Shown: one piece after another, positions 19,296 through 56,921 of the stretch
Numbering within the stretch: the first letter of the stretch is position 1
Layout of the letters: every line of letters begins with the position of its first letter
From: Pomphorhynchus laevis
Lineage: Eukaryota; Acanthocephala; Palaeacanthocephala; Echinorhynchida; Pomphorhynchidae
Length of the DNA: 64,000 nt
NCBI GenBank assembly: GCA_012934845.2
Contig: WNNJ02003786.1
Location: 117,943-181,942, forward strand
Direction: 5' to 3'
Position numbers and translations under genes: made by a program
The notes under the pieces: generated by a model
The model's input: the letters and a program-made list of their open reading frames with translations, nothing else
The model's database searches: none
Told to the model about the DNA's origin: nothing

Positions 19296-19299
19296 TTCC

Positions 19300-24678: not shown

Positions 24679-24923
24679 ATGCTTACAGTATACTTATGTT
24701 TTTGGATTATCGCATGCTTTGTTGTGCGAGCTGTCACTGATGTTCATACATCATGTGATCTGAGTAATAGAGGTTTCATGGAGATTAGTGATATTGTGAA
24801 ACATTCTACTTCCTTTGTAAATACACCGGGCAACCATCAAATTCACAGTCTCGAATATTTACAACGCATTCCCATAATCGCTTATTGCATACAAAATAAC
24901 TGCTCTTGGCAATGCGACGAGGT
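24679..24923 (+). CDS. LRR gene exon 1: signal peptide and Cys-rich N-terminus
   Basis: The ATG at 24679 opens a frame beginning MLTVYLCFWIIACFVVRAVT, a good signal peptide of about 19-20 residues. A segment with four later cysteines follows (SCDL, YC, NNC, QCDEV), compatible with an LRR N-terminal cap. The frame stays open to a GTAAGT donor at 24924, leaving two bases of a codon (phase 2), the phase required by the first LRR exon at 28366 (GT+G gives Val). TTGTAG immediately precedes the ATG, an acceptor-like site, so the 5' leader may be spliced on. The product would be secreted or membrane-anchored. The role is unknown; the exon design resembles LGR/relaxin-receptor ectodomains. Confidence 0.7.
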
Positions 24924-25429
24924 GTAAGTATTATTTAGTTATTTTATTTTGATTTAAATGTGTTTGTTGAAATACATGTCTCAACATCGTTACGACATTA
25001 TTGATTGTGTATGCAATATACAAAAGAGAATATACACTGTATATTTTTTAAATGTAAGATTATCGTTCCCAATGATTTTTTAAAATTATTCATAGGCTAC
25101 CTTAAAGTTAGATTTTGCATATCGTTGTTTCATTAGATTCCCGTGTTCCGCTGTCGATGTCTAATTGGTATCAAAGTTCTTGTTATTTTGATTCTAATTA
25201 CTTGACACTATCTGAAAGCATTCTAACTTTTTCAGCAAATTCATAAGGAATGAACATACAATATGATCAGTCAATAAGCTTTTAAATAGTAAATACTCTC
25301 GTGATTAATTCATGACGTCAATAGAAGAAAAATGATTAAAATTAACATTTAAATTAAATGATCCAAACAACAAACATTAACATTTAAATTAGTACAATTG
25401 TAAATCATGGAGTAAGTTGAATTAGCTGT

Positions 25430-25680
25430 CCGTTTTATTGCCTTTAAATACATCGTTGCCCTTCTAGGTAAGAACAATGCCTCTTTTACAATACGAAGTT
25501 TCTTGTTGGCCTCCCGACACAATACATCGATTCCATCAAAATCAATTAAATGTTCAGCGGCCGCCTTTGATTACAAACTGCTGACGCGGTGTTAGCAATA
25601 TAATGACGGTGCATTTCAACACGTATATCAAGTTGCTCGCCTGTTTGACCTTTATATTTCTGATGACAACCCCCACAGTG
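25430..25680 (-). pseudogene. GIY-YIG endonuclease fragment of a Penelope-like element
   Basis: The minus strand encodes CGGCHQKYKGQTGEQLDIRV and EMHRHYIANTASAV, matching the GIY-YIG core (Y.GQTG..L..R...H). After a one-base shift comes HLIDFDGIDVLCREANKKLR and IVKEALFLPRRATMY, the helix with the catalytic Glu region. Penelope-like elements use this endonuclease for target nicking. It lies 800 bases beyond the stop of the RT ORF at 26470, separated by the structured terminal module, so it may come from another copy. It is in intron 1 of the LRR gene. Confidence 0.65.
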
Positions 25681-26259
25681 TATATAGTTATATATACATA
25701 TTTATATTTATATATACCTATATATTTCATTCATTAATCTGTATATATTTGATCTATATATTTCCGATGACAATCTGCATCGGCTGTCATCAACAATATA
25801 TAGTTAAATCGGCGAGTAATTTGATACACGTTTAGGACACCGCCATCGATAATCTAAAACGGCTAACACCACATACATGCATTTTGATTGAGTGCATACA
25901 GTTGACTCTAACCCAGTAGAACAAACGTATTGTAAAAAGCTTGAATTAGCAAAATATTAAAATCAGAAACATTTTAACTTTATGCTCCAAACAGATATTT
26001 TTTAAATATCTATAATACACATAAAATATTAGTCCATGCGAAAAATTAAATGAACTAAAATATAATTTTATTAATATTAATATCAATTTTAAAATATTAT
26101 TTTATTAATCAAATCAGCTAACTGAGTCTACGTATTTAATATAATTATAAAATAAACAAAACATAATAATGCTAAATCAAAATTTAATAATTAAATAATA
26201 AAATTAATAATTGTTTTTAGATTTTTTATAATTTAAATCAAGTTAAAATAAAAAATTGA

Positions 26260-26470
26260 AATTTAAAATAAACGTCATTTTTATGAATTGACTAATAAAT
26301 AACAGACGTTGTATCAGAATAAGAATTAGAGGTCATCAGGAGGAACTGCTATGCTATCAGGTTTCGGCCCCTAACTCCTCTACCCAACATAGCAGCGGGG
26401 CCAAATACATGCTAATGATGTATTTCCTCTGAAATAACTATCTAGTATCTTATTCTAATACAAAGTATAT
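26260..26470 (-). repeat. Structured terminal module of Penelope-like element
   Basis: It is directly downstream of the RT stop. The block shares sequence with 36880-37170 and a short core (CCAAATACATGC, then TGATGTATTTCCTCTGA) with repeat D. Two stems interleave: 26346-26353 (CTGCTATG) with 26388-26395, and 26366-26371 (GGCCCC) with 26397-26402, a possible pseudoknot. Penelope-like elements are known to carry ribozymes in terminal repeats, but no complete hammerhead core was found here. Confidence 0.5.
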
Positions 26471-28060
26471 TATTTATTATCCATCCATAAAAATTTGCCA
26501 CTTAAGAGTTTAAATTTATTCTTTATATTATTGTGTTGATTTATATATTTTACTATTTTCTGCTTGATGTTATTTTTATAGTAACCTAGTTTAAAATATG
26601 TATCTATTAAATTATTTAAATGATTTTGAAGAAAGCCAATATCATTACATATTGTTGCAATTCTTAAAATTTCATTATTTAATGTATTATATTTTATATT
26701 ATATGGTATGCATGAATGCTCATGCAAAAATATGTTTCTTGTAAATTTAAATATGTCATCTTGACGATATAAATTAAAAGTAGTTTTGATTGATGTCAAT
26801 TTAATGTTCATATCTAGATATACACCTTCTTTATCATTAATATTGGTTTTGTTAAGAATAAGGCTTTCTGGATAAATTTGTTCACTAATTGAATAAAAAT
26901 TATTAGAATTAAATACACATATATCATCAATGTATCGAAACATATATTTTATATATTTATATTGTTTAGATTTAGTTTTTACACAGTTATGAAAAAATTC
27001 ATATTCTATAAAGCTTAAAAACAAGTCAGCTGTAATTGGGCTATTATTACCACCCATTGGAACACCTTTTACTTGTAAAATGTGTTCCAATGGGTGGAGC
27101 ACCTTTTATGTTCCACCAATTGGTGGAACATCTAAATATAGATGTCACTACCTTATATTTACTTGATGGTTTAATTTTTGTTAGATAGGCGTTATAATTA
27201 TTATAACATATATATGTATATCTTTTTCCGAATATAATGTTAATTAATTTTACTAACGCTTCTTTAATATCTACTAAATCTAGATTTGTATAAAGCGTAC
27301 TAAAATCGTATGTATTTATATTTTGAAAATTTATTCCTTTTGTTTATTCTAAAAAATCTTTTGTAGAATTAATACTGAAATAGTGTTTTATACCAGTATT
27401 AATTTCGATTATCTTACAATATTTTTTAAAGTGTGCTTTAATTACTTTAAGTATTTTATTCATATAGACAGAAAGTGGTTTTAATGTACATTTAAACGCA
27501 CTATATATGAACCTAAGTTTTATTGGATTTTCATGCAATTTTGGATTCCAATATAATATAGGTATAGTTTTATTATCTGATTCAACCTTTATACACATTT
27601 TATCCATTATAGAACAGTGACTTGTAATAATTGTTTCTAAACTTAAATCACTTTGTTCATATGTTGGATTTACATTTATATCATTAGAATTAACTTCTTT
27701 CATTAGTATATCATAATAAAGATTTTTGCATATAAAGACAAAGTTATTACTAGCTTTATCAATAGTTGTTATTATATAGTTATCCTTTAATTTAGTAAGT
27801 TCTTTATACATATCTTTATTAATTTTATCTTTCCTTTTGTAATTGTTTGCTATTTTCATTTTATTTTTAATTTTATCAAATATATAATCTGTCTAAATAT
27901 CTATCTTAGATATATTCGTGCTTTCACTATTAATCAGCTTACTAAAGTAATCATTTAAGTTATTATATAACGAATTGTAAATTTTATTTTTGTCGTTGTT
28001 ATTCTTGACAAAGTATATCATTTGTTTATTTCTTTTAAAATACACTAATATATACGTTTT
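26470..28060 (-). pseudogene. Penelope-like element reverse transcriptase
   Basis: Three pieces in order. 27344-28060: KRNKQMIYFVKNNNDKN, one stop near 27893, then TTIDKASNNFVFICKN and PILYWNPKLHENPIKLRFIY. 27111-27343: FSTLYTNLDLVDIKEALVKL. 26470-27102: QVKGVPMGGNNSPITADLFL, the catalytic box MFRYIDDICVFN, and YPESLILNKTNINDKEG. DKASNN, YWNPKLH and GVPMGG are typical of Penelope-like RTs of the kind abundant in invertebrates. Between pieces two and three a run of short palindromes (27050-27130) disrupts the frame. It lies in LRR intron 1, antisense to the gene. Only two disruptions suggest a rather recent insertion. Confidence 0.85.
27050..27130. repeat. Short palindromes inside the Penelope-like RT
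   Basis: 27050-27064 (CCACCCATTGGAACA) is an exact inverse of 27083-27097. 27109-27130 is a perfect 22-bp palindrome (half: TTGGTGGAACA). They interrupt the RT frame just before GVPMGG and look like a local inverted duplication of that coding stretch. Confidence 0.88.
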
Positions 28061-28365
28061 ATGAAAGCAGGATTATGTTTCGTTTAAAAATTATATTTAT
28101 CTAATTAGTCTTCCCATGGACAGAAAAATATGTTTTTACTTATTTCGCCTGATGTAACAAGATGTAATTTTGTAATTTTTTAAAGATGCTAAAAGTAATT
28201 GGCGAAATATCAAAAATATTTTCTTCTTTCCTTTGATCCAGCTCCAATAATTATTTATCAATAATGGATAAACTATTTAAAAAGAATATTTATATTTTTG
28301 GCACTTTTTTATATAATATTTTAATAATAGTTCATTTTTTATATTAAAGTTTCTTGTGTTATCAG

Positions 28366-28434
28366 GAACTTGAATAACAACTATCTTCATCAATTGCATG
28401 ACTTTTCTCACATGTTGGCCGGTGTACAAATACT
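28366..28434 (+). CDS. LRR gene exon (LRR unit)
   Basis: 69 nt between TTATCAG and GTATGA. It encodes NLNNNYLHQLHDFSHMLAGV then QI, with N at the asparagine position and leucines spaced as in one LRR. The junction codons are GT+G upstream (Val) and CT+A downstream (Leu). The next intron is only 51 nt, so the two exons form a convincing pair. The donor is the weakest in the set. Confidence 0.8.
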
Positions 28435-28485
28435 GTATGAAATTTTATAAACTGCATTTTTATTTTTTGGGTTTTTGCTCTTAAG

Positions 28486-28554
28486 ACAATTAGATTACAA
28501 TTTGATTAAATGTGTTGACCCACTATTTGTGATAGCATTCAGTCTTCAAGAATT
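28486..28554 (+). CDS. LRR gene exon (LRR unit)
   Basis: 69 nt, acceptor CTTAAG, donor GTAAGT. It encodes QLDYNLIKCVDPLFVIAFSL then QE, matching the LxxNxIxxIxxxxF pattern. It ends in TT, completed to Leu (TTA) by the next exon at 36219. Confidence 0.85.
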
Positions 28555-29769
28555 GTAAGTATTTTCTAAGTTTATCTAACTATTAATTTTATCAAATATA
28601 AAATCAGTTTAAAAGCATTTAAACGATATGACTCCTCCATATCTCAGTATAAATAAGATTTTTAATTAAAAAATTCAAATATTTTAATATTTTAACGTAT
28701 TGATGCCAAATAAATATCGATGGCGCAATATATTTTTTAAATTCAAGAAATAAACTTTAAAAAAACATAATTGCTAGTTTCCTAATTATTGAGAATAAAG
28801 GAGTTTGACTAAAGGTGATCGACTAAACATTGCATTCAGCTAAGGCAGATATAAGTTTTTGAAAAATTTCTCTTGGAATTTGCAAATAATAAAAACAACT
28901 AGGAAAATTTGAAATTATGGAAATTATCTTTTGCATTTGATATATCGTAGGTGATTAACTTAACTGATGAAGCTAATATTGTCTATATATTCGTCTTCTA
29001 TTTGTTTTCCTAAGCAATCTCGTTTGCATTCTTTCGAACATTCTGATTACGAAATTAATCCATCTTTTGCATATGCGAGCAATATCGTTGTGTTTTTTAT
29101 TCTATATTACCCTCACGCGATTACACGAATTGAAGATATGGGCATTCTACTTACTGAAGTGATGGTATTAGGATTAGAATTATCATCCGACGGTTATATA
29201 TGAAACCTCACAAATATGAAATCAAGTAATACCTTTTTACAAATGTGATTCGAGACGATATTTCTAAAATGCAACTCAGGATCTGGACCCAAAATATATT
29301 CTTGATTAAATGACGCAGTGGTTTTATTACACGATGATGCTTATTTGACACGTACTTAATTAAGAGTCATACTTTTATCAACATATAAAATGAAATATGT
29401 ATAACTGACCTATGTATAAAATTTGTAATGTTGTAGATAATTCACCATTAGCAATGATTACAGTTATGGATTTCGGCTGCTCCACTCACTAATACATTGC
29501 AAAATGTAAAAGTTTAAAGGTTATTGAATATTTATTTGTTATATAACAAATGACAAAAATGATTGCAGTATCTAAAAAAGACAAATGTTTTTTACATGCA
29601 AATCTTTGAGGTAAATATACAAGTACAAAAACAAGGAGCCAAAAATAAAATCTTAAAGGGAGTCAGATAAAGTGAAGTCATACGAATAATTAAGTATTAT
29701 GATGACGGGCAAAGGAAATCAGATCCCTTCAGCTTACACCAGTGCGCCGCTTCCATAATGAGTCATCCA
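28555..29769. other. Intronic AT-rich DNA
   Basis: Part of the 7.7-kb intron. A 78-codon open stretch at 28967-29203 with a hydrophobic run (IVVFFILYYP) has no splice or domain support. The stretch at 29690-29800 is less AT-rich but not recognised. Confidence 0.5.
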
Positions 29770-29809
29770 GTGTCTCACACACACCTGACGGTTTAGTCGA
29801 GGCGTACTA

Positions 29810-31260
29810 TGGTAGGTAACCTCGAAAAAGCCTTAGTCATTACTTTGTTGGTCGATTATTTGATGTTAATGGCACACCCCAGGTATTTTACTAGATGTGT
29901 AATGTTGGGAGTGGTGGATTGTTTAATAAAGAATAGAGAGATGAGATTTCTAGACTCATTAGTCTTTCTTTGTCGCGGGAGCACCATTAAATACAACCAC
30001 CTGTGATTTATACGAGTTGAGAATAAGATTTAACGTTGTTAATTGATCTTTTAATCTTAAAAGAAGCGGCTGATCTTTGAAACTACATCTATACACATGT
30101 GTTCAGAGAACAGGGATGTTGTATCATCAGCGTTTACCACTAGACGTTGTTTGCGTTTAAATGTTTTAAAGAGTACGATTGAAGCAGCAAAATATAAGAT
30201 AGTAGAAAGTGTGGAAACATGAGGCATACCTGTAATAGGATAGAACTTACGAGCATCAGGGTCATCTTCATAAAATAACAGCTTGGTGTACAGCAGTATC
30301 TCCACCCTGTTAACAATTCTCGTAGGCAACCCGAGGGACCTAAGCGAAAAGATAACAAATTGCATTAAAATGCAATCAAATGCAGATAAAAAGTCAAGAA
30401 AAACAGTTATCGCAAGCTGATAAGTGTTATCGTTTCAAAACCGATGTACTTCACCTATTTCTGAATGAGCCGAGCGACCTTTGACAAACCCATAAAAACC
30501 TGGAGGGATTAAATTACAATACTTCGATTGTCGCGGATTCTACGTGTAAACACTTTTTTGTAGACGGATATGAGTTAGTTTTGAATCGAAATGGGCCACA
30601 GATCTTTAGAGAATGTTATCAATATCTTTTTTGGTAAAAATATACGTCGGCTAATGTTGATGCTGGCAACATCGAACGGTGTTGACAGCATAGCGACCTC
30701 TTTTCTCTGACTGCCTGTTTAAAGCTGACAGACCCGAGTAGAGAGTGCCGCGTGAGATCTGGAGATTCCCGGGAGTAGCTCCCAGGAGTTTAGGATATAT
30801 GGAACACTTAGATCCCTGCTACTGAAGTCACCCCAAGGCGGGCTTGGTTGGGGAGATTCAGTGGCTCCATAATTATGTTGGGATCTCCTCCAAAAATCTG
30901 TCAGGGCCTATACTACCGATCCAATTTAAAGCCCTCTCCTTCCAGCAACAAACGTTTTCTTGAATCTCTTCCAAAAGGAAGAGTGAGAAGGGATAAGGCG
31001 AGTGATGTTCTCCATGTCTCTACTCTGCTCTAATCGATATCTAGAGCTCCAGTATTCATTTGAAAGGGTATGTCTGACGGAAACAGATATATTGAGAATA
31101 TGTAGAATTGTTGCTGGGACCTCGAGTTTTGGTTTTGTGGGGTTGTTTAAGCGACCTTTATATGTACTCGAAAGGATCGCGGTAGCTTGCGATTACTGGT
31201 TAGAATTGAATAGGGTAAGACTCGCATTTCCTACTTTTGGGAAGAGTTGGGTAGCTGCCT
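29810..31260 (-). pseudogene. LINE reverse transcriptase
   Basis: Recognisable parts include FWRRSQHNYGATESPQPSPP, a run through FVKGRSAHSEIGEVHRF, AITVFLDFLSAFDCI (motif A), LPTRIVNRVEILLY, MPHVSTLSTILYFAASIVLF and LVVNADDTTSLFSE (catalytic box). HLVKYLGCAINIK is in the thumb. At least eight stops or shifts separate them. It would have copied LINE RNA at nicked target sites. Confidence 0.72.
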
Positions 31261-31429
31261 GAAGCAGGTTACTCTGATTTGATCAAAATAAAACCTTATA
31301 ATCAATGTATCTTAATCTAACCTTCAATGGAGTAAGTCGTTCGAGGTGAACAGTTGTTGACCCGACTGTTCAATTCAGATAGGCTTAAGCAGCTACCTCT
31401 CGTGTAGCAGAAGAATCTCGATGAGAGAT

Positions 31430-31965
31430 TTTGTTGTAGTGCGATGAAAGGTGGGAGATTGTGGTTTACGCTTAAGATAGTTGTTCCTGGCTCTGCAGAG
31501 TCTGCATTTATCCAACAACCAGTTATGTTGTTGAAGTCACCAAGTACCAGGTCATAGTCGCTACCTAATATACGATCCAGGAGGTCACGGTTCTTGTGAA
31601 TTTTTCCTCGCCGGTATAAACATTAACTATGCTGATGCGTTTACCGTATTTTTCCATAGTGTTATCACTAAACAAGATAGGGTTAGCAAGAGTAGTTTTA
31701 TAGGAAGGATGATATCAAGGAGCTCTTTACTAGGTTTAAAAGACCTTAAAATGAAGAGGAGTGAGGTGTGGTTATTTACAGATTAAAGTTGATTGTTATG
31801 TGCATCGGAATAAATCGAGTAATGTTCTGGGAGTCTGGATAGATCTAGATTCCTGAAGGACTATAACATTTGCATTTCGACCAAATAAAATGCTAAGGGC
31901 AGATGCACTTCCCGAATTACACTGATTGATGTCCAGCGAAAACGGTTTGGAATTACTTCACATAC
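31430..31965 (-). pseudogene. LINE endonuclease
   Basis: The minus strand shows VIVLQESRSIQTP with the catalytic Glu retained, ISIVNVYTGEEKFTRTVTSW (shifted), YDLVLGDFNNITGCWI and a C-terminal block ending FFCYTRGSCL that aligns with FTRGGC in the 6220-6800 copy. The frame is broken by stops. Comparing the two copies shows the copy at 6220 lost its Glu. Confidence 0.72.
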
Positions 31966-31999
31966 AAGGATGTCACTAGAAGGGCCATCAGATCCACTA

Positions 32000-32720
32000 G
32001 TTAGGTCCAGATGGGAAAAGTTGTCCTTCCGGCTTCCGCCCTTTGCAGCAGGCCAATGACCGCTTCTTCGTTGTTGAGGCAAATATCATCATTTTCCACC
32101 ATCTTCGATGTGTTGTTTTGTTTTTGGAGTTTGACCAGAGCAGTCTTGGAAGACGATGAGCGCTTGTTTGAATTTTTGAATAAAGGTAATGCTACGTTGT
32201 TCGGCGTCAATAATGCATCGGTGTAGTTTTTTATTAGCGTCATGATGGGCGTTATTTGATCCTTGATTTTTATATCAATAATTTTCATGATATCGGTCAA
32301 GATCGGCATGTTATAACTGGCGGAACGGCGTAATTTTGATTCGTAGACTTGAAAGGGATGGCTGAAATAGTTGCCTGTCGTCTTTGATAGTACTTGAACT
32401 TTGGACATTTTCGGGACTAAGTCAGATTTGCTGCTTTCAGTTGGTGCAACAATGACGTTGAAAGAGGCTGGATTGTCCTGGTTTTGTGAGCCGCAGATAC
32501 TGCAGATCTCGCTTACTTTACACGTTTATGCCAAGTGTTCCCAACTGTGACAATGGGTGATCGGGATAATTGTATTCATCTATATGTATGAATGTAAATC
32601 CCAGATTGCAACTCATGAAAGTGTTTCAGCTGGATTTGGATGATATGCGTTTTCGGCAGTTGTATTCGCGGACGCGATTGAAAGGGGTACCATTCTTCCA
32701 TTTATGAACCTCTGATTAGA
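32000..32720 (-). pseudogene. LINE ORF1 (zinc-knuckle protein)
   Basis: The 135-codon open stretch (32001-32408) starts MSKVQVLSKTTGNYFSHPFQ and ends before the endonuclease. Upstream, around 32480-32560, the frame shows HCHSWEHLA, a stop, then CKVSEICSICGS, resembling the C-H-C knuckles of insect-type LINE ORF1 proteins. These bind element RNA. The N-terminal part is unreadable. Confidence 0.5.
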
Positions 32721-33060: not shown

Positions 33061-34529
33061 TGTATTAGCTCTTTTAAAAAGTTTAAGTCACACTAACCTG
33101 CATTTCCGTTGCTTGAATTTCGTTTATTGCAAAATGTTTGATGTTCCGAAACTAACTTTACTGCACATTTTTTAACTTTTTATCTTTACAATATCTCCAC
33201 TACGTTGATCACGCACCAGCACATATAGATCACAAAACTAATCTCATAAATCTAAAAATTATTGTTTAATGTAATAATGCAATAATTGTTTCGTACCTGT
33301 CGAATACAAATTCTATATTGTGATTACAAAATGCGGTATAACGCAGTTTCGTTAAAATTTACATTTGCAGAATTTAGTTGTATCGTGATAATGTTTTATA
33401 ACACCTGCACTTTAGGTCATTAAAAGGTAATCGCATCCGACATTTTGATACAAATTCAAATCAGCTTATTCATTTAACGTATTTGTGAGTATAATGGACA
33501 TTGTGCGAACGTTGAATTGACATTTTTTATAAATTGAACACTTTAAGTTACAAAATACAACTTTAACTATTTCTCTTGATGGAATAATTATTCGTTGAAA
33601 TAACTATTATTTGAATGATTTTTTTTAAATAATTAAAAATATTTATTCCTTTATTTGATATAATATGATCAGACTTAATAGTTTTGCTAAATACATTTTA
33701 TTATTATAAAAATATTTAGTCTCTAACTCTTAATTTACAGAGACAATTTTCACACGATACATGCTGCCTGTTGTTTTGACAACGTTTATGTTTTTCTATT
33801 AAACATATTAAATATAACGACAGCTTATTCATTAGTGGAGAGAGTGAAGTAAAATATTTATTTAATCGAATTTTCAATAGCCTACTGCTATCATCTTCAA
33901 GAGTAAATGTTACAAAAAATATTTTTACAGTATAAAAAATTATAATTTATATAAATTTATAATATAACGACAGCTTTGATATTATTATTTTTGAATTCAA
34001 GGCTCTAGACACGTCAAAATAAAAATCATGAAAACTGTAGTTGTCTGCTCAGCTGATGACAGAAAAGCTCTGTGTTATTTTACATTTCAATGTTAAATAA
34101 AAATTTATAAATTATTATTGTTTTTTCAATTTGATCATTATTTTAAATATTTTTTAACTTATTGATTAACTTATTTAATAACAGAGACAAATTTGAATCT
34201 ATATTTGCTTACTAATTTACAGGTTGAATAAAAGATGAAAAAAGCCATGGCAATAATATTAAATTAACATTTATCTCATAATATTTATATCCATCTAGTG
34301 ATGATAGCTAGAATAATATTGTTGATGAGAAATTTATTGCTTTATTCTTTTCTTCATCAATCGTACTGTTATGAATAGAAACGAATGACCTACCTCAATA
34401 GTACGAGCTGAAGTTTTGAATGAAGCTTTTTAATTAAATTTTTGAGATAAGAGTTATCTGTTCTGCATTTGTACAGCATTTGTACAATTAATCAATAAAA
34501 TCTTGATTATGGGCTTTGTTGTTAATCAT
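33061..34529. other. Intronic AT-rich DNA, nothing recognised
   Basis: No coding, RNA gene or repeat is recognised. An acceptor at about 33740 (TTTACAG) leads into a short open frame without a good donor. A CTGATGA string at 34053 lacks the partners of a hammerhead. Confidence 0.5.
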
Positions 34530-36218: not shown

Positions 36219-36278
36219 AGATTTGTCAAACAATATTCTTTCGCTAGTCCATATTTGGGAAGTCATAAATCTCGAATT
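36219..36278 (+). CDS. LRR gene exon (short LRR unit)
   Basis: 60 nt, acceptor TTTTAG, donor GTGAGT. It encodes DLSNNILSLVHIWEVINLE, with the DLSxN signature but four residues shorter than the 24-residue units. The junctions give TTA (Leu) and TTG (Leu). Confidence 0.8.
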
Positions 36279-37660: not shown

Positions 37661-37679
37661 ATTATTATAAATATTATAT

Positions 37680-38416: not shown

Positions 38417-38759
38417 GCGCGGTTAGTCGGAACTTTTTTGTGGACTACAGTACTGGGAACAAGCCTTGTTGATGATCCCTTTTAAGAGGCATGTCAAAAT
38501 GCTGTTTATTTCTCATTTTCGATGTTTCAGCTATCCACTCGATTTCTTATTTGTAAATTTCACTCTTCTCAGCCAGTATTTTTTATCAATTCTTTATATA
38601 GCGCTGATAGACAATATCCAGTGTATCTTAAATCTAGTTGTTTACTCATATCCATAGACCATTTATTTTCTCTTTTCACGTTTATATTCGGTATATTTGA
38701 GTCCTAACCCTCCAAAACAGAGTGGAAGAACGATCAATTTATTATAATATTTATTAGGA

Positions 38760-40935: not shown

Positions 40936-42615
40936 ATCTTTAATTATAATAAATTATGAATTATTAAAGATCTTAAGTTTAAAATACTTACATTTTTAAA
41001 TTATTGTAAATTACAGAGTATGTATATAACTAATATAAATTATTTGAAATTTTTTGGTAGTAATTAATATTTGTGATCGTTTAGATATTTAATGTTTATT
41101 TAAAATCTTTTTAGTTGCTTATAATAATCTTTCGATTGTATAGTTTTATTGACATATGAAATTGATTTTAATGATAAAAATTTTAAATAATACAGATTCT
41201 TGGACATTTAAACATTATGACGTAGATGACAAGAAGAATTTAAAGGAAACATGTAACCTAGTTTGACTGTTTGGGCATATTGTGTCTTTTCAGTGACGGG
41301 TACTTCCTACTGCTGGATGCAGAGGATGACCGAAAGATAGCCAATGCAAATATGTCCTTCAGATGTATGTCAAATTAATTATTACAGATAATTCAGATGT
41401 ATGTCAAGTAAATTATTAGTCTTTTTGTGTGTAAACTGCTTTTTAAAACAAACAAATACCTTGTTTTATTACTTGCATTTTACTCGTATGTCATGTTATG
41501 CTGGATTCTATAAATAGCTGACTTTCAATGATAAATAAAAATTTCTCATTAATATCTCTTAATAATTTAAACTTAAATATTCCACGCTTCCAATGCATAT
41601 TTTATAGACGACTAACTCACAATCCGAACGACTTTGAGTTAGAATGTAATACACAGCTAACGTAAGTTCGTTTTGTACTAAACGATTACTTATTTAATCT
41701 TTTATGAAGGGATCTTCGTTTCAACAAATTACAATCAGGGCAAATAAAGCAGAAGATAATCATATCGGCAATGCTTCTGTACGTTTTTAAAATTTTAAGT
41801 TTTGAACATAACTTTGTCGACGTACTTATCTTAATTTCTAAATGTAGTGGAGAACAAAATGTTTGATCATAATAGTTATGTATTAACGTTTGAACTTCTC
41901 AAGATGTAGATGAATGATGTCTCATGTTTAATATATGCTATTTATGATATTTAATTTAATTGTTTCACTTCCTTTACTTCTATTTGTCTAGATTATGATC
42001 TTTTGATTAACAAACAAGTTACGCTACTTACCACAACAACATTTTATTTGTTAGTTACTTTGCTAGAACGGAAAATGAAACTTTAAACATTTTAAGATGT
42101 AGAAAAAGATGTCTGATGTGAATATATGTCATTTATGATATTTAATTGAATTGTATATATGAAATGTTTACAGCGATAATAATACATTAAAATTGATAAT
42201 AATATTATATAATAATATTTATTAATAATACATTAATACATAATAATACATAAAAGTTTTTTATTACCACAATCATGTTTACTCTTATGTTTACTTAAAT
42301 TATTTGGCAATATGTTACAGCTGCCTTCCTTATCATCTTGTATCTGGACAAATATAATCTATAAATTTATTATGATATTTAATTTGAATCACTTCCTTTA
42401 CTCTATTTTTCTAGATTATAATCTTTTAATTACCACAGTAATGCTTTACATCTGTGTTCACTAAATAATCTTTTAATAAAAATAAATAAATTTTTGAAGA
42501 AATTATATCGCCTTGATGTATTTATTTTGGAATAAATTAAATAAAAGACTTAAATAAAATTAAATAAATTGAATAAAACTCGGTTAGATATATGTTTTGT
42601 TGTCTTTTACTTTAG
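40936..42615. other. Intronic AT-rich DNA with one exon-like remnant
   Basis: At 41608-41645 an acceptor (TTATAG) is followed by RLTHNPNDFELE and GTAATA, LRR-like but only 38 nt and out of phase, so probably a decayed LRR exon. CTACTGCTGGATGCAGAGG at 41310 recurs at 43516 in similar form. A duplicated block, TTTCTAGATTATAATCTTTTAATTA-like, occurs near 41989 and 42410. Confidence 0.4.
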
Positions 42616-42687
42616 GCTTGACTACAACCTACTCGTTGATCTCAATTTTCTCTCTGCTAAACATTATCTACGTACACTTAAATATTT
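42616..42687 (+). CDS. LRR gene exon (LRR unit)
   Basis: Exactly 72 nt, acceptor TTTAG, donor GTAAGT. It encodes LDYNLLVDLNFLSAKHYLRT then LKY, the classic 24-residue LRR spacing. The junctions give TTG upstream and TTA downstream, both Leu. Confidence 0.88.
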
Positions 42688-43193: not shown

Positions 43194-43265
43194 AAGCTGC
43201 AGTCACAATCTGATCCGCACAATCAATGAAGAATTTTTCGAATCGGCGATTAATCTTGAGAGACT
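43194..43265 (+). CDS. LRR gene exon (LRR unit)
   Basis: 72 nt, acceptor TTTTAG, donor GTAAGT. It encodes SCSHNLIRTINEEFFESAIN then LER. N at position 5 and F in the middle fit the LRR consensus. It ends CT, completed by A to Leu. Confidence 0.88.
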
Positions 43266-44982: not shown

Positions 44983-45054
44983 AGATCTGTCTTACAATTA
45001 CATTAAGAATATTCCTCATAGATTCTTACACAGCAAACACGCAATTTCATACTT
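44983..45054 (+). CDS. LRR gene exon (LRR unit)
   Basis: 72 nt, acceptor TTTAG, donor GTAAGT. It encodes DLSYNYIKNIPHRFLHSKHA then ISY, the best consensus LRR of the gene (LxLSxNxIxxIPxxF). The junctions give CTA and TTA, both Leu. Confidence 0.9.
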
Positions 45055-45698
45055 GTAAGTCAATGTTTATTATTCACTTTCTGTCATCATTGTTTTATTA
45101 ATGTTGATTAACTTCTAAATTTTATATTTGATATAAAATGTTATATTTGATATATATGTGAAATATTGTTTGTCCCAAAATTTTATAAGATGATCAAAAA
45201 CGGTCAATTTTGAATATATCCTTATATAAATTTTAAAAATTAGACTAAATTTATAATAATTTGACAATGACATATTCAGATTATGATATTGTTTTAAATT
45301 GACTATCTTTATTTATGCTCTGGAAGAATTTCATAACGTTATAATAATTTTGTTCGACAATTTTAGTTGATAACTAAATATTATTTGCGATATATTAATT
45401 ATATAACGATTGAATTTTAAATCGATATGTATTGAATTTGTAAATTTTTAACTTTGAAAATAATCGAATTTGGTGGCAATTAAGAAATTGATTTATATTT
45501 TACAAATTGTACAAAATAGATATCATTACACTCCGCTGATATAGTAATAAATTAAATAAAATAAATAAAAACAAATTTTAAAATTGTCAATGTTGATCTT
45601 TTTTATATGGGACATGTTTGTCTGTTTTAAGTTTTCAAGATGCTTTTAATAAAAGATCTTTTTAATATTTGATAAGTTAAGGGAATGTACATTTTTAT
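45055..45698. other. Intronic AT-rich DNA
   Basis: No gene or named repeat is recognised between the LRR exon and the tandem LINE tails. Confidence 0.5.
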
Positions 45699-47860
45699 AA
45701 AGTAATGCTGTCTTTATGAATTAAATTAATGAGGTTTTTTACACTTGTTGAAATAAACGCTAAATAATAAGATTTTGCTATTGTTTTCTTCGTTCAAAAT
45801 TATTACTTTGATGTCGCTCTGAAATTTGAATTCGATATCAAAATTAAATGTGTTGCTCAATAATTTGTTGCTTAGTAACTTTAAACTAACAAAATAATAA
45901 AGTTTTTAATATTTAACATGCATCATATTTCTAATAAATATTTATATAGTATCTAATATTTATATAATATTTTGAGTAATACTTTCACTTATAAAATGAT
46001 CTATATTGAACACATGGAAGGAAATTATAAGTTTCGATGAAATGAGTCGAATCTGCATTAAATCTTTTTGCCTTCCTAAATAATGTGTGTTGTCAAAAAC
46101 GATGTACAATACGATGAATGTTGCATCTAAGTAAATTGTTAAGTAACAACAACAATTTCTTGACAAGAAAAAACAAATAATATAAAAAATATTTCTTGTC
46201 TACCCCTGGTCCGGGTGTCGTGTTGTGGAAGCAGTGCACGAAGCAAACTAATCCAGGCATCTCGATCCTCGGCAACAGACCAGAAGTATCGTCCAGTTAC
46301 TCCAAAGCTGTTTTCGGCTAGTTTCAAGATTTGATCTCTCCACTGGTATCGAACTCTACTTTGATGTCTCTTTCCAGAGAGTCCAGACTGGAAAACCCTC
46401 CGAGGAAGGCGATTCCTAAAGTAATGCTATGTCTTTATGAATCAAATTAATGAGGTCTTTTACACTTGTTGAAATAAACGCTAAATAATAAGATTTTGCT
46501 ATTGTTTTCTTCGTTCAAAATTATTACTTTGATGTCGCTCTGAAATTTGAATTCGATATCAAAATTAAATGTGTTGCTCAATAATTTGTTGCTTAGTAAC
46601 TTTAAACTAACAAAATAATAAAGTTTTTAATATTTAACATGCATCATATTTCTAATAAATATTTATATAGTATCTAATATTTATATAATATTTTGAGTAA
46701 TACTTTCACTTATAAAATGATCTATATTGAACACATGGAAGGAAATTATAAGTTTCGATGAAATGAGTCGAATCTGCATTAAATCTTTTTGCCTTCCTAA
46801 ATAATGTGTGTTGTCAAAAACGATGTACAATACGATGAATGTTGCATCTAAGTAAATTGTTAAGTAACAACAACAATTTCTTGACAAGAAAAAACAAATA
46901 ATATAAAAAATATTTCTTGTCTACCACTGGTCCGGGTGTCGTGTTGTGGAAGCAGTGCACGAAGCAAACTAATCCAGGCATCTCGATCCTCGGCAACAGA
47001 CCAGAAGTATCGTCCAGTTACTCCAAAGCTGTTTTCGGCTAGTTTCAAGATTTGATCTCTCCACTGGTATCGAACTCTACTTTGATGTCTCTTTCCAGAG
47101 AGTCCAGACTGGAAAACCCTCCGAGGAAGGCGATTCCTAAAGTAATGCTATGTCTTTATGAATCAAATTAATGAGGTCTTTTACACTTGTTGAAATAAAC
47201 GCTAAATAATAAGATTTTGCTATTGTTTTCTTCGTTCAAAATTATTACTTTGATGTCGCTCTGAAATTTGAATTCGATATCAAAATTAAATGTGTTGCTC
47301 AATAATTTGTTGCTTAGTAACTTTAAACTAACAAAATAATAAAGTTTTTAATATTTAACATGCATCATATTTCTAATAAATATTTATATAGTATCTAATA
47401 TTTATATAATATTTTATGTAATACTTTCACTTATAAAATAAAATAAATTAAAAGCGTGGAAGGAAATTATAAGTTTCGATAAAATGAGTCGAATCTGCAT
47501 TGAATCTTTTTGCTTCCCTATATAATGTGTGTTGTCAAAAACGATGTACAATACGATGAATGTTGCATCTAAGTAAATTGTTAAATAACAACAACAATTT
47601 CTTGACAACAAAAAAAACAAATAATATAAAAAATATTTATTGTCAACCACTGGTCAAGGTGTCGGGTCGTGGAAGCAGTGCACGAAGCGAACTAATCCAG
47701 ACATCTTGATCCTCGGCGACAGACCAGAAGTCGCTTTCAGATACCCCAAGGCGGTTTTCGGCCAGTTTCTAGATTTGATCTCTCTACCGGTATCGAGGTC
47801 TACCTCGATGTCTTCCAGAAAGTCCGGCCTTGAAAACCCTCCGAGGAAGGCGATCATTTG
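45699..47860 (-). repeat. Three tandem copies of a LINE 3' end (721-bp unit)
   Basis: Units start at 45699, 46418 and 47139, each opening AAAGTAATGCTATGTC. Units 1 and 2 are nearly identical; unit 3 matches until about 47430, then diverges and runs on into the LINE RT at 47861. On the minus strand each unit encodes the C-terminal tail (SVAEDRDAWISLLRALLPQH) and a 3' untranslated region. Units 1 and 2 break at the same point (CGATTCCT, then AAAGTAATG), so they arose by tandem duplication, not separate insertions. Confidence 0.92.
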
Positions 47861-49118: not shown

Positions 49119-49360
49119 AATAATATATTTTTAATATCTAAAAAGTACTATTTTTTAATACTTATATAATAACTGTATGTTTAAACACTTAAAATATAGC
49201 GCTTTAATTTTTGCTTCAAATTTGTATTTAAATAATTTTGGGAATGTTTATATTAAAGAATAAAATAAGCTAAAATGTATGATATAAATTATAATAATAT
49301 AAAAGACAATTTTCCGATATGGGTTATTTCCAACTTTACAAATAACAAATTTTAATTTAG

Positions 49361-49432
49361 AAATTTATCGTTCAATTTAATTGCTGCAGTAAACACTGGT
49401 GATCTCTATAACATGATCGGCCTTCAAGATGT
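49361..49432 (+). CDS. LRR gene exon (LRR unit)
   Basis: 72 nt, acceptor ATTTAG, donor GTACGT. It encodes NLSFNLIAAVNTGDLYNMIG then LQD. The start fits NLSxNxI; the middle is less typical (GDLYN). The junctions give TTA (Leu) and GTG (Val). Confidence 0.85.
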
Positions 49433-50664
49433 GTACGTAGCTCGAGTTATTCTCTTCTGTTAGTTTTGTTACCATTTTGCATTTCGATTACATTTAATAT
49501 TTGATGAAATCACATTTATAACATTTTATACATATTTTTAATTATTTGTATATTAGAAATTATAAACGTATTTTAAACTTTACTGATACCTGACAGCAAT
49601 ATTTATTCGCCTCTTTGAAATTGTTAATAAAGATTTTTATAAAGATTACTAAAATTGATAATAGTCAAAAATGTAGTTGTCAATATTGTAATAATGTTGA
49701 CGACAATACCTCGTCCAGTTTTGAAAATAAATGTATTATTCTGAATTAAAAAGAGCTTTTAGCAATACTGGATTAAAAATGATGAATTATCCGATAAAAA
49801 TATTTCTTAACATTTGACACATTAAAATACATTTGTATATCCCTCCTTAAGACAAATTGCACATTTTACTGATGTTGTAAAATGTTTTTGTAATACCTTA
49901 TCTATATTGTTAGTTCACCAGCATGTGGAAACAACAAATTATAAATAAATATTATTTATTTTATAAATTATACATCATAATGTATAATGTGTAATTATTA
50001 TAATATTTAATTAACAGTTATACCTTATATATTATTTCATTAGAGTTTTCCACTTTTATTTTAAATAAAATTTTAAGTGATTAGTTATTTAAGATATAAG
50101 AAGTTAAAATGATTTTTTTTATCTGAATATGAAAATTTACTTAAATTGTTATTGAAGACTAAAATTAATAAGAAAAATTAATAATTTAGCCTGTTTTTTG
50201 TCTTAATTAACATATTAATTTAAAATCAATAATAAAATCAATAATCAATTTCTTGATTCGTACACTGCCTCCACTATCACTGGTGGACACGTGTATCTCT
50301 CTTCCGACACCCGTATCAGTGGTGGACAAGAAAAATCTTGTGTGCTTATTTCTAGTCAAGAAATTGTTGTGTTGTTGTAATACATATTGTGTTTTTGTTA
50401 ATAAGACATTTACTAAAATGAAATGTTATGAAATCGTAATGTAGGGAGAAAAAGTATCTCATATTATATAACATAACATTTATCAAATTTTGAAAAATAT
50501 TTTTATAGATAATTAAATCGTTTAATCAATGTTAAATCTTCTTTTTATTTATTGGTGTCAGTTTTACTTATTAATATATTCGTTTACTCAGTTTATTGCA
50601 AGTTTGAAGATGTAAACATGTTTAGATTTTCTCTTAAACTATTATGTTCTATTTGTTAAATCTG
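49433..50664. other. Intronic DNA with an inverted LINE 3' scrap
   Basis: Mostly AT-rich. At about 50300-50390 the + strand reads GACACCCGTATCAGTGG, TGGACAAGAAA, then TCAAGAAATTGTTG, a diverged copy of the 3' untranslated region of the LINE at 45699-47860, in opposite orientation. The stretch ends where segment A begins. Confidence 0.6.
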
Positions 50665-51082
50665 TTAGTTATTTAAGAGTTTGTAGAGTTAGGATTAGTG
50701 ATATATTCTGTAATTCACTTAAGAAATGAAACATTTTATCTTTAAATTTGATGGAATTTAACAAGCATAAATCTAGTGCCGTGATAAAATATCAGTAAAA
50801 TATAAAGGAGTTTTTTATCATCTCAGACAAAAACAATCGTTTAATTCTTTCGTATTAACATTTGCGTATTGTGTTATCCTAAAGGTTTTTTAACTTTCAT
50901 TATTTTAAGATCTAGCATATATCAGCTGGCAATGCCTTTTGGAACTGATACCTTTTACTATATTATTTGTACATTAATTTCTTTCAAAGTCTTTTCAGAA
51001 CTGCAATACTTGAACATATTTTTTCTCTTATATCGTTTGAGATAAATAATTGAAACATTGATACTTGAATTATATGTAATAG

Positions 51083-51154
51083 GCGATTATTTGGCAATCC
51101 AATTACCGACATTCCGTCCGACTTTCTGAGCTTATCATCCACGTTAAAATCAAT
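51083..51154 (+). CDS. LRR gene exon (LRR unit)
   Basis: 72 nt, acceptor TAATAG, donor GTGAGT. It encodes RLFGNPITDIPSDFLSLSST then LKS, a clear LRR (NxIxxIPxxF). The junctions give GTG (Val) and ATT (Ile). The left-arm copy at 14211-14282 differs only silently. Confidence 0.9.
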
Positions 51155-52675
51155 GTGAGTAAATTGGCTTGTCGTGAATTGAATTTATATCGAATGTAGG
51201 AATATAAAATTTCATTGATTATCACGAATATATTAGTCTCGTTTAGTACTGATAGATTAAATAGATACTCAATTAATCGCTATTTATATTATAAGACATT
51301 TAAAATAAACGATTTTAAATTATTAATGATCAATTCTACTGTGTTTTAGCAAAACATAGGTATAGATGTAATTTATTGCGGGGCGCGCTCTATAACATCT
51401 TTATTTTATATAATACTTCAAATTGTCAAAATCTAAAATCAATAGGACTACTAAAAATAGCTATGGATTTCAGTTTCTAAACCATATAGCATTAGTATGT
51501 ATGGATGCTTTCAATCATAGAATAAAAAATTATATACCATTAATAGTGCAGATATTAATTATTAATCAAATAAGACGTTGTTTAAAGCTATGTAACTGCA
51601 TTTCCTATTATATTTTACCAATAATATGCAAGTAGAATTCCTTCAATCATAATATGTTATAGAAAAGGATTTGCATCGTTGTATTTTTGATTGTAAGCTG
51701 ATTCGTTTTTTGTTTTTATCACACTGGATATGTAATCAGTGGGTTGAATACAAATGTGTAATTTCATGAATTAGGCTATAACACAAATATTCTTGCATAC
51801 TTTCATTTAATTTCATTGCATGGAAATGTGATTTTATCAAGGTAGCATTACCATATTTTATGGATGTATTTGGTCATAATAGATTTCATTCTTGAATTAT
51901 TTGACCACAATAATTTTATCTGGTATTTAATTTATTTACCTTGAAGTCAAAGAATGAGATTAAGCAACATGTTTACTCAAATAAGCTACTTTTTCTGTTT
52001 TAATAAACGATTTTTACTAACTTGATATTTATAAATAATAAAAACAATATTTAATTTACAAATCAAGATTTTTCCAGGTATGAACAAAAAGCTGACTAAC
52101 CATATAAATCAAATGGCCTGCATTTAAATATAATTAAATATACTTAAATATATTTTTATATAATTTAAAATATATTTAATAAATAATGAATTAAAATAGC
52201 AGTTAGATATCAAATTAATTACTAAATAATTAAGTCTAATAATAGATAAAAATGATATCTTGAGTGATTTATTAAGACATGTTTTTGTATTTTATGATTT
52301 CTCTCACGATAAACATTTTTGTGTTTGATTAAATTACACATTTCTTTAGTCTACAAATAATCCAAATTAGCAATGACGAGTCTTCAAATATTTCATCAAA
52401 AAATAAATTAAAATTATAAATTAATTTTTGTAAAAGGTCGATTCGTAATTGTAACTTAATTACAAATCGACCTTAGGAATGTTTTTGTTGATGTTGTTGC
52501 CTACTAGACATCGACAAGAACGTTTTTACTAAATATCAAGAGATATGAACGCAGCCTGCTGTTTTCTAAAAATCATCAATAACAGAACTGTTCCTTCATT
52601 TAATTTTGCTACTATATATGTTTCGCAGATTATTGTCAAATTGCCGAATATTTTTTCCTATTAATTTTATTTTAG

Positions 52676-52741
52676 TGCAATGACTTTAAAACATCGTCAA
52701 TGTTTTAATGCAAGCCGAATTTCTAATCAGATAGAAGAAAT
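52676..52741 (+). CDS. LRR gene exon (atypical unit)
   Basis: 66 nt, acceptor TTTTAG, donor GTAAGT. It encodes AMTLKHRQCFNASRISNQIE then E. The hydrophobic spacing is looser and the Asn ladder position is absent, so the LRR call rests on phase, size and position. The junctions give ATT and ATA (Ile). Confidence 0.68.
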
Positions 52742-54956
52742 GTAAGTTTGATTGATGGTGCATTTTAAAAATAAATTCATTTGATAAAAGCTGTCTCTTA
52801 TTTAACAAATTGTATTATCATTGTCCAAATACATAAAAATTTACAAAACATTAAATTAATATGAATATAGAAATGGACTTTAAATCTGAAATTTGAATTG
52901 TAGGTATTAAAACAATATAAAACATGAAATGAAATGTTAATTATTTCTTCGATTTGCTTGTTGATTAAAGTTAAACTAATAAATATCTTAATTACTTAAA
53001 TTATAGTTTTACTGGCAAAATACTTTTTTATTTACAATCTTTCAATAATTGAATATTATTTGTTCGCTATTTATTAACTTATTGCATACTTTATTGTATA
53101 AATGTTTGCCATTCGATACTAGATTTCAAAACTAAGGATCCTGCTGTAAATTTAACAATTACTAGTTTTATTGCGGTATATGCAAAGCAAAATAATTAAA
53201 TGGGCAAACCGTATCTATGTCGATACTGGCATCTAGTTTTCGACTGAATTATCAAATCTATAATTAGGAAACAACGACATTATTTTTGAATATCTTTTTA
53301 TTTTGGTGAATCTCTTTGGAATCCTTTAAACTGAAAAGGAATTGATTACTTATGTTTTCGTTAATTAATTTATTCAAAATAATTTCGACAAGTTAGTTAC
53401 ATTTAAAATTCAGATATTCATATTAATTTCGACAATTTCGTTACAGTAATTTGTCTAGCTATTTTAATATATCATCTAGTAACATAACTGGCATTGACAA
53501 GAATATGTCATGTTCGTCAATTTCTTCTAAATATTCAGAAATCGATTATTTGAGATTCATCTTGAGGTTGATGAAATTTATTTATTGAGCAAGATTTTGA
53601 TAAGTTACATTTAAAATACAGATATTCATAATATTTCCGAATATGCCTTGCTAATTAAATATATCGTCTAGGGACATTACTATAATTGCCACGAATAATT
53701 TATGTCAGCGAAATCTAAACATTAATTGTATAAATGTTTGCAATTCGAAACTGAATGTTTAAAAAAGCACAAGCTATAGTGTTCGGAACAGGAAAGCAAA
53801 ATAATTAAATGCGCAAACCGTATAGATGTCGATAATACTTTCTAATTTTCTATTGAATTATCAAATCTATGAATAGAAAATTGCAACAATTTAAAAAAGT
53901 TTTTAACTATATTTAATTTTTACAAACATTGATTTTATTTAAAAGTATTCATCTGCTTGCACTAAATCGCTTAACAAATATCATCTAATATTTTCTGTAA
54001 TATTTAATATTGTGTAATAATGTATTTTGTGTAATATCTAATTGTACTTATTTGAGATTTGTTTTGCGATTGATAAAACTCATTTGTTTAAAATAATTTC
54101 GACAATTTCGTTACAGTAATTTGTCTAGCTATTTTAATATATCACCTATAAACATAACTGGCATTGACAAGAATATGTCATGTTCGTCAATTTCTTCCAA
54201 ATATTTAAAATTGGATTATTTAAGATTCATCTTGAGGTTGATGAAATTTATTTATTAAAAATAATTTTGATAAGTTACATTTAAAATACAGATATTCATA
54301 TTATTTACAAATATGCCTTGCTAATTAAATATATCGTCTAGGGACATTACTTTAATTGCCACGAATAATTTATGTCAGCGAATTTTCTTCTAGATAATCT
54401 GAAATGTTCGTTTCTTTTCACGTGAAATGAACATAATAGATCTTAGTTATTGATATATTTGTTATTGTTTTAGAGGTATCTTTGTGAAATGTATAGTAAT
54501 TTCTATTTAATGTATTATAAAGCAATAAATATTAAGTGATACTTGTGATTTATTAATACGAAACAATTATATACTCTGATTGTTATTTTTAACTGTTATA
54601 GATTTTAATTATGCATATTTGACTCCTAAAATAATAATATAGAATAAATATTCACTAAGAATATTCTAAGTAACAGATATAATAGAGATGGTTGTCTTTA
54701 TCATCGCTGATTAAATGTGCAAAATATTTTATAAACAAAATTCTTTGGTAATAATTTAAACTTGAATTTTATTGAATGTAGAAAATTGAATAAAACGATT
54801 GAAGTTTAAATCTTTATGTAAAAGCAAAAGACAATTAAAGTCAATAAATTGTATTAATTAGTTTAGCTACTATAATTTTTAAATCAACAAATTGTTTTGA
54901 CTAAAAAACGTGAACGATTTTATTAATAAAATCTAATTTGATAATTTAAATTTTAG

Positions 54957-55019
54957 AAAGTTTTCTGGTTGTCAAATTAACATAAAGGACTATTTTGGCT
55001 TGGATAATTTGACTTATAT
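54957..55019 (+). CDS. LRR gene exon (LRR unit)
   Basis: 63 nt, acceptor TTTTAG, donor GTAAGT. It encodes KFSGCQINIKDYFGLDNLTY. Cys replaces Asn at the ladder position, a common LRR substitution. The junctions give ATA and ATA (Ile). Confidence 0.78.
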
Positions 55020-55400
55020 GTAAGTTTATGAAATCTTAAACAAATCAGTGTTACTTTTTACAAACGTTAACTTCTGTAAATGATTGCTAATGGGCATTTT
55101 TAATATATCCTTTATATTTTTGAATATCTTGTATACGAACACATATATATGTTCGTTGTTTGAAACACATGCCGTATAAAGTTTACAAAATGCTAATTCA
55201 CCAAAGTTGCAAAATTTTCTTTAAAATTAATAAAATCATAAACAAAGTTTGAATTTATTAAATTCGTTTTGATTTTAACTTCTTTAATAACTAAAATCCC
55301 TTTTTTTCTAAAGAATATATTTTATAGGCAAGATTGGTTTGTTTATTTTTATTATAGTTTAATATTCTGAGGTTGTAAAATGTTTTTGTTTTATAATTAG

Positions 55401-55466
55401 AGAATTGGAATCAACAGTGTTGACGGACTTCGATTTGCTTTATGGAACAACCGGAGCTTCTACTAT
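55401..55466 (+). CDS. LRR gene exon (atypical unit)
   Basis: 66 nt, acceptor ATTAG, donor GTGAGA. It encodes ELESTVLTDFDLLYGTTGAS then T. The fit to the LRR consensus is modest, but phase and splice sites match, and the only coding difference from the left arm is silent. The junctions give ATA and ATT (Ile). Confidence 0.68.
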
Positions 55467-56849
55467 GTGAGATACATTATTAAATCTTGTTATTTTTGCT
55501 TGTAATTTTAATGTTTTGTTTAACATTTACCTGGTGATCTTCTCATTAACACATTTATTAATCAATAAATTGATTTTTAATCATTATCGTTCAAAGTGCC
55601 GAAATTTATATATTGAATTCACAACTGCAGCCAAACAAAATTTATGAAAAAATTTAAATTGTCTTCAGTTTTATGTTATTGATATTATATTAGTGTAGTT
55701 TTTTATAAAAAGAACTTTTATCTCAGATATATTATGCTGAAACATTCGTCATTTTTAGTCTTTATTAAATTTCAAAATTATTCGCATGAAATTTATTAAC
55801 AAAATTTAAAAATAAACTGTAATTTTGATATTTTTTAATAATATTCCATTTCCAGATTAAAGTTATTTTTACAACTATTATATGAACAACCCTGACAATA
55901 TAGAGAAGGATAATTATTATATTGTATATATATCAAGCATTATTGCATATTGTTTGATTGAACTCCTTTGACTATTTGATTGCGCGAATAATTTGTGTCA
56001 TTTAAATATCAAATGTTAAAAGTCAAATTTTAATATAATTTTGCAGTCATTGCAACAATTGAACTTTTCGATGACACTGCACGTTGCTTTAATCCTATCT
56101 ATGAGCCAACAGAAATACGCTACATTTCAGTATAGGTGGACCTCATAAGTTACTGATACGATATTAACGTTTCACGTTTCGGTCCGTTTAAAGTTGGCTG
56201 ACGATCATTCGACTTGTTTGCTTTATTGAAATTAGATTTAATGAAACTTTCTCATTAACTTTGCAAATTTAATTGAAATCATTTCTGATTTCAAATTAAA
56301 TCGGCGTTGGTAGAAAAGGTGCTACCTTCAATTTGAAAACTTACTTATTTTTCTAATGATTACTATTGTCAAACTAGTCATCTATTATTATATTTAAAAT
56401 GATAACTACTAATTTTTTATGGAATGAATAATAATATTTTAATATAAAAGTTTGTAATACCATATTTCTTTGTGTCAATACTTGATTACGAGGTTGTAGT
56501 CGGGTAGGTTTGTAAAGTACTTTTTATACATTTTATTGCTTTTTAGTTAATATAATCGTAATGATTTTATGTTTCTAAAGAATATTTAAAGATTTATTCT
56601 TTTAATGTTCTTAGATAAGTGGATATTATGAAAGTTGGTGGCACGTAGAACAATTGTTATTTTTATTATATATAATTTGGAATATCTTATTTTTATAAAA
56701 TATTAATTGTTTCTCCTCTGTACCAAGATCGATACTGAGTTCAAATATTGCTTCCATGGATTTCCTTTACCGTGTTAAAGCTCCTTCCTTGACTCATCTG
56801 TAAATGATCACATTATCCGAAAATCTTTATTATATTTATTAAATTGTAG

Positions 56850-56921
56850 TTCACTTTCTGGCAACATTATCGAAGAATTGAATTTCGCTATATTTAAATC
56901 TATTCCCAACGTCCAGTATTT
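56850..56921 (+). CDS. LRR gene exon (LRR unit)
   Basis: 72 nt, acceptor TTGTAG, donor GTAAGT. It encodes SLSGNIIEELNFAIFKSIPN then VQY, a good LRR. It is the last confident exon. Its left-arm counterpart (7918-7990) carries a one-base insertion. It ends TT, so a following exon starting with A or G would restore Leu. Confidence 0.88.

Follow-up and report, generated by a model that had tools for sequence, protein, structure and literature searches.

Genes assembled from exons that each encode one leucine-rich repeat (LRR) are known from several systems. In the part of PMC11378527 that we consulted, the brown-algal LRR-ROCO genes are described as carrying one LRR per exon on 72-bp phase-2 exons, with splice variants that have different LRR combinations. 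In the Tetrahymena LRR genes covered by the available text of PMC6564038, exons are exactly 90 bp long and have undergone waves of duplication, with an extreme bias toward phase 2. The DNA analysed here, which we call the window, covers the final 64 kb of the 181,942-base contig C2632 of Pomphorhynchus laevis, and it carries an array of LRR exons on the + strand at 24679-56921 (Table 1). P. laevis is a thorny-headed worm (Acanthocephala) that parasitizes fish and lives in the gut. The assembly analysed has 249 Mb in 3,242 contigs, the draft genome being stated, in the portion of its report available, as 260 Mb in 4,021 contigs (PMC7310846). The array represents a genuine gene that is incomplete here, namely the 5′ portion of one member of a family, and we consider it quite probable that this family is a multigene set of large, apparently secreted LRR proteins of P. 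laevis.

Seventeen exons join in phase 2 at 16 of 16 junctions and give an open frame of 444 codons with splice sites in place, which bears out the proposal of a preliminary description of this DNA that a signal-peptide exon and one-LRR exons on the + strand form one gene with every join in phase 2. Every LRR exon opens with the one base that completes a codon and closes with the first two bases of another, and with all joins in the same phase the omission of an exon keeps the frame, as that description had also expected. The LRR exons are 54–72 nt long rather than the 60–72 nt first given (exon 6 has 54), and most of them, though not all, hold one LRR. The joins read GTG CTA TTG TTA TTA ACG CTG TTA CTA TTA GTG ATT ATA ATA ATA CTT, so the earlier claim that all are Val or Leu/Ile fails at one of the 16, a Thr (ACG). 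The twelve join codons listed earlier are nonetheless reproduced in order by a 13-exon path (starts at 24679, 28366, 28486, 36219, 42616, 43194, 44983, 49361, 51083, 52676, 54957, 55401 and 56850), which we worked out by hand from exon ends, the preliminary description giving no exon list; if this is the path meant, the four exons at 33416, 41608, 41710 and 56728 were overlooked. Likewise, the seven 72-nt exons claimed are six on that path, and the count of seven holds among all 16 LRR exons.

Within 24600-57000, a search for symmetric exons that have an acceptor, a donor and an LRR start motif returned 13 phase-2 exons on the + strand (12 real and one false, ending at 38552), compared with none in phase 1, two in phase 0 and none on the − strand; 100 dinucleotide shuffles, scanned in phase 2 on one strand, yielded 0.2 such exons on average and never more than 3. 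This motif was picked after the exons had been seen, and what supports the array independently is its agreement with annotated proteins, which also revealed three exons overlooked in our separate scan for exons (41608, 43194 and 52676). Specifically, the joined exons are identical to P0002 at 244 of 255 aligned residues, to P0011 at 110 of 112, and to P0001 at 287 of 300 (the last 300 aligned, the first part of P0001 being a different start). Nineteen of the 25 matches in a protein search are hypothetical proteins of P. laevis, the best of them nearly identical. The LRR profile search proposed earlier gave the expected result, with a match to LRR_8 at E 1.5e-17 when 14 of the 17 exons were joined, and LRR profiles also match six sister proteins. 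The N-terminus is hydrophobic, with a 19-residue Kyte-Doolittle average of 2.22 at residue 1; the signal peptide is called from this hydropathy.

Annotated relatives of the window gene extend beyond exon 17, and the gene is cut at that point because a fold-back copy of its upstream region forms the end of the contig. Exon 18 was read on the sister contig C3068, about 0.75 kb past the end of its homology with the window, and was not found on C2632 by tblastn. The 3′ half was read on C214 and C603, where 17 exons both begin and end in phase 2 and two others only begin in it; five shorter phase-1 matches on these contigs are pieces within the phase-2 exons of this half. Annotated modules laid end to end give, by hand count, a full gene of about 43 exons. 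On C214 the sister gene finishes with one of the two exons that only begin in phase 2, and this final exon ends in TAA right after ...LLHLECTGNN. Among the 14 proteins that reach the common C-terminus, none has a 19-residue stretch above 1.6 on the Kyte-Doolittle scale (the highest is 1.57, in P0026), and none has a hydrophobic tail in its last 60 residues. Because of the stop codon in the sister gene and the lack of a membrane-like segment in 14 of 14 proteins, a secreted LRR protein, rather than an LGR receptor, is the most plausible product of the window gene.

The family is large. A genome search with the first-exon protein returned 45 rows, which are 33 near-full-length copies, five split copies of two rows each and two fragments, and thus 38 assembled copies of exon 1. 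Exact pattern matches, lower bounds that include the window copy, number 30 for exon 4 and 27 for exon 9, with none in the controls. All 11 fetched copies of exon 1 are open; ten begin with ATG, and ten have a GT donor in phase 2. The 29 copies of exon 4 outside the window all have an AG acceptor and no stop, with a GT donor in 28 and GC in one, a count in which the search pattern itself selects part of the open frame. In all 20 contigs that have at least three of exons 1, 4, 9 and 12, these exons stand in the same order. For this test one gene per contig was entered by hand, with the multi-copy contigs C1572, C922 and C456 and those having fewer than three of the four exons left out, C2292 among the dropped, as only its exon 1 was entered. 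The window protein is 63–78% identical to 11 of 13 paralogues and 41% and 44% identical to the other two, which are fused models, and modules within the window gene share a mean identity of 22% and a maximum of 53%.

Substitution patterns in this family look like constraint and not like a recognition repertoire under diversifying selection. The pooled pN/pS (ratio of nonsynonymous to synonymous differences) is 0.54 in exon 4, where 21 of the 30 sequences are distinct, and 0.53 in exon 1, where seven sequences remain once an identical copy and four rows that differ in length or have no donor recognized are set aside, and dN is below dS in 21 of 21 exon 1 pairs. Positive selection was considered and rejected on these pooled values of about 0.5, which come from two exons and few sequences and are not site-wise. 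A hypervariable concave face of the kind seen in variable lymphocyte receptors was likewise set aside, as column entropy over exons 2–17 (14 of the 34 aligned sequences, compared without a significance test) is 0.60 on the concave face, 0.92 in the loops and 0.49 in the core. Around exon 12 (50600-52600), stretches as long as about 1 kb, mostly intron, are still about 67–78% alike between distant paralogues, and because of this likeness the expansion of the family would be fairly recent, or its introns constrained.

Several observations weigh against the reading of the window as part of a large, apparently secreted LRR family. Bit scores sort the 33 full-length exon 1 rows into 20 classes, and a stop is present in two of these rows; some of the 38 first-exon copies may be haplotypes. 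Two of the 11 fetched first exons are damaged, with ATA for ATG on C1076 and no donor on C456. In another 22 family proteins that were scored, a single stretch exceeds 1.6: P0010 reaches 1.69 within the LRR of exons 7–8. The window gene lacks its 3′ half on its own contig, and its end is taken from sister genes. An AlphaFold2 model of the family alignment (13 sequences, query P0026) has a mean predicted local distance difference test score (pLDDT) of only 55.9, and because this confidence is low the fold assignment rests on the LRR profile matches.

It is informative to set the family beside the systems it resembles. Like the brown-algal LRR-ROCO genes it has one-LRR phase-2 exons, but those genes, in the consulted part of their description, encode ROC-COR GTPases with shuffled exons of 72 bp, whereas the P. 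laevis family keeps its exon order and has exons of 54–87 nt where read; a Pfam search of the joined exons and six sister proteins found LRRs and no ROCO domain. With the 90-bp-exon genes of Tetrahymena, as far as the available text describes them, it has in common an expanded LRR family, a phase-2 bias and retrotransposons nearby, although the Tetrahymena genes show waves of exon duplication and the modules within the P. laevis gene are diverged. LGR and gonadotropin receptors also have one-LRR phase-2 exons, but they are seven-transmembrane (7TM) proteins, and the P. laevis sister gene has a stop codon after its LRR/Cys-containing end and no 7TM. Protein searches needing shared words, two of which scored the best 7975 and 7980 candidates, found no close relatives outside P. 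laevis; the nearest named proteins among these best candidates include chaoptin, artichoke, convoluted/ALS-like arthropod proteins and insect proteins labelled TLR3, at 23–32% identity over part of the query. Chaoptin, artichoke and the convoluted/ALS-like proteins are mostly about 1000–1400 aa long with LRRs, and chaoptin is an LRR protein with a glycosylphosphatidylinositol (GPI) anchor. The P. laevis family differs from this type in having no hydrophobic C-terminal tail and in a Cys-containing stretch that splits its LRRs.

Exon structure also raises the possibility of an LGR-type G-protein-coupled receptor with a 7TM exon beyond the contig, the class that the preliminary description had invoked. 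Gonadotropin receptors share the one-LRR phase-2 design (PMC11378527, in the part consulted), and the ectodomains of LGR4 and LGR5 are among the best sequence matches in the PDB; nonetheless the best PDB match is LRRD1, in a list of generic LRR proteins, and the TAA of the C214 gene and the 14 C-termini without a membrane-like stretch, all from sister genes, make a receptor extremely unlikely. A pseudogene or an assembly artefact is a less remote idea, given that the contig end is a fold-back, that the assembly was merged from two drafts (PMC7310846, available portion), that exon 17 of the left-arm copy is frame-shifted and that some sister copies are damaged. However, all 17 + strand exons are open with splice sites, C2575, C2906 and C3068 carry exons 1, 4, 9 and 12 in the same order, and substitutions are constrained, so we regard this explanation as distinctly doubtful.

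The two remaining alternatives concern the exons as interchangeable units. By analogy with the brown-algal LRR-ROCO genes, regulated alternative splicing could make the locus combinatorial and yield many binding surfaces. In sister genes, annotated isoforms of one gene do differ by single whole LRR exons: P0003 and P0004 differ by exons 4 and 14, and relative to P0007, P0008 is without exons 5 and 11 and P0012 without exon 11. Exact single-exon losses account for 15 of the 31 internal gaps of at least 8 residues in family proteins, against about 9.5% for random gaps, a count that treats isoforms of one gene as separate. Exon 4, absent from P0004 and P0026, is present in intact form on C136 and C214. 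These differences, seen in annotation only, are either transcripts or choices of a gene predictor, which can skip symmetric exons without a frame penalty; literature look-ups did not yield the origin of the GJ496 gene models or the method of isoform calling. The other 16 of the 31 gaps reflect first-exon divergence, false starts, fused models and a differing end, and the concave face, less variable than the loops, is not hypervariable, all of which leaves a combinatorial locus unlikely. Ongoing exon shuffling or tandem exon duplication, producing LRR-number variants as in the Tetrahymena genes, would be a different route. An inverted copy of exons 12–17 adjoins the gene, P0026 and P0030 are without exon 15, and this exon was not found on C214, C1738, C603 and C1154 when up to two mismatches were allowed, a weak absence given 23 matches against 22 in the control. 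Yet exon order and the low identity between modules speak against shuffling as a current process, which the preliminary description had entertained; shuffling is rejected for the four exons tested, and we hold this route to be very unlikely overall.

Under the reading that we favour, of one member of a large, apparently secreted LRR family, the protein would be a secreted LRR solenoid of about 1000 residues, with two blocks around a Cys-containing stretch, and may work as an adhesion or ligand-binding scaffold. The expansion of the family would have come from the duplication, within repeat-rich DNA, of entire genes or of parts of them. Since leaving out an exon keeps the frame, differences in LRR number would be tolerated between genes and possibly between transcripts. 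The open-licence literature searched, including the available parts of PMC7310846, PMC9523657, PMC12690905 and PMC12256650, gave nothing on an acanthocephalan LRR family, and little in that literature concerns acanthocephalan surface or secreted proteins. With its 38 assembled first exons and no annotation beyond "hypothetical", this apparently secreted LRR family is a candidate set for adhesion or host interaction, and it offers a natural test of splice diversity from phase-symmetric one-LRR exons in an animal; the exon-skipping reading, if true, would make it the equivalent, in an animal, of the LRR exon arrays of brown algae. One can imagine, as a rather improbable extension, a gut parasite with dozens of genes for secreted LRR proteins, made of phase-interchangeable exons, that uses whole-exon skipping in addition to gene number to present its host with a changing assortment of released LRR scaffolds.

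Table 1. Features of the window (positions count from its first letter)
Feature	Position	Strand	Details
Exon 1	24679..24923	+	245 nt: ATG, signal peptide, Cys-containing N-terminus; donor gtaagt; ends 2 bases into codon
Exon 2, LRR NLNNNYLHQLHDFSHMLAGVQI	28366..28434	+	phase 2 at both ends; own scan
Exon 3, LRR QLDYNLIKCVDPLFVIAFSLQE	28486..28554	+	own scan; protein P0002
Exon 4, LRR SLKGNRIRHFDTNSNQLIHLTY	33416..33484	+	own scan; missed earlier
Exon 5, LRR DLSNNILSLVHIWEVINLE	36219..36278	+	own scan
Exon 6, RLTHNPNDFELECNTQL	41608..41661	+	54 nt; via annotated sister proteins; missed earlier
Exon 7, LRR DLRFNKLQSGQIKQKIIISAML	41710..41778	+	own scan; missed earlier
Exon 8, LRR	42616..42687	+	72 nt
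Exon 9, LRR SCSHNLIRTINEEFFESAINLER	43194..43265	+	72 nt; via annotated sister proteins
Exon 10, LRR	44983..45054	+	72 nt; own scan
Exon 11, LRR	49361..49432	+	72 nt; own scan
Exon 12, LRR	51083..51154	+	72 nt; own scan
Exon 13, AMTLKHRQCFNASRISNQIEE	52676..52741	+	66 nt; via annotated sister proteins
Exon 14, LRR	54957..55019	+	63 nt; own scan
Exon 15, LRR	55401..55466	+	66 nt; own scan
Exon 16, LRR	56728..56799	+	72 nt; own scan; missed earlier
Exon 17, LRR	56850..56921	+	72 nt; own scan; last exon of gene found on C2632
Inverted partial copy of exons 12–17	7030..14694	-	exon 12: 14211-14282; 13: 12634-12699; 14: 10356-10418
Inverted partial copy, continued		-	exon 15: 9909-9974; 16: 8041-8112; 17: about 7918-7990 (estimated)
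Region upstream of gene	16495..22747	.	long terminal repeat (LTR)-like direct repeats 19097-19295 and 22550-22747 (~199 bp)
Inverted copy of 16495-22715, 99.65%	57778..64000	.	runs to contig end; starts inside LTR-like repeat

The gene is flanked by inverted copies on both sides. The left arm is 98.0% identical to its counterpart over 8985-14694 and 94.4% over 7094-8412, and its exon 17 is shifted in frame by one base. Contig C2292 is arranged alike, with the − strand copy first and exon 1 on the + strand after it, and is 100% identical to the right arm and end of the window over 50670-52600, 57000-57777, 57778-58600 and 62000-64000. Because C2292 shows the same arrangement, the inverted partial copy of exons 12–17 is probably real; the fold-back at the contig end is a rearrangement or a misassembly, and may be the latter. 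The upstream element (19097-22747) is a putative LTR retrotransposon, so called from its direct repeats; an inverted, slightly truncated copy follows exon 17 at 57778-61397, and pieces of it lie on other contigs.

Other features of the locus touch single parts of the gene. TAG stands immediately 5′ of the start codon in 16 of 16 copies of exon 1 (24669-24679 in the window; 11 fetched copies and five further loci, one with ATA for ATG), which suggests an intron in the 5′-untranslated region or spliced-leader trans-splicing onto the ATG. In P0026, residues 327–461 form a Cys-containing stretch (CLHSMCIPG...YTCP...) between two LRR blocks, modelled with very low confidence and possibly an island domain. 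The filling of the introns with transposons was checked in part, via repeats. Intron 13 holds a 289-bp tandem duplicate (53424-53712 and 54094-54382) with an LRR-like open frame (NLSSYFNISSSNITGIDKN...), three peptide words of which occur in none of the proteins searched, and the duplicate recurs in the left arm at 10993-11281 and 11663-11951. In intron 10, a repeat of roughly 720 bp lies in three tandem copies at 45698-47854.

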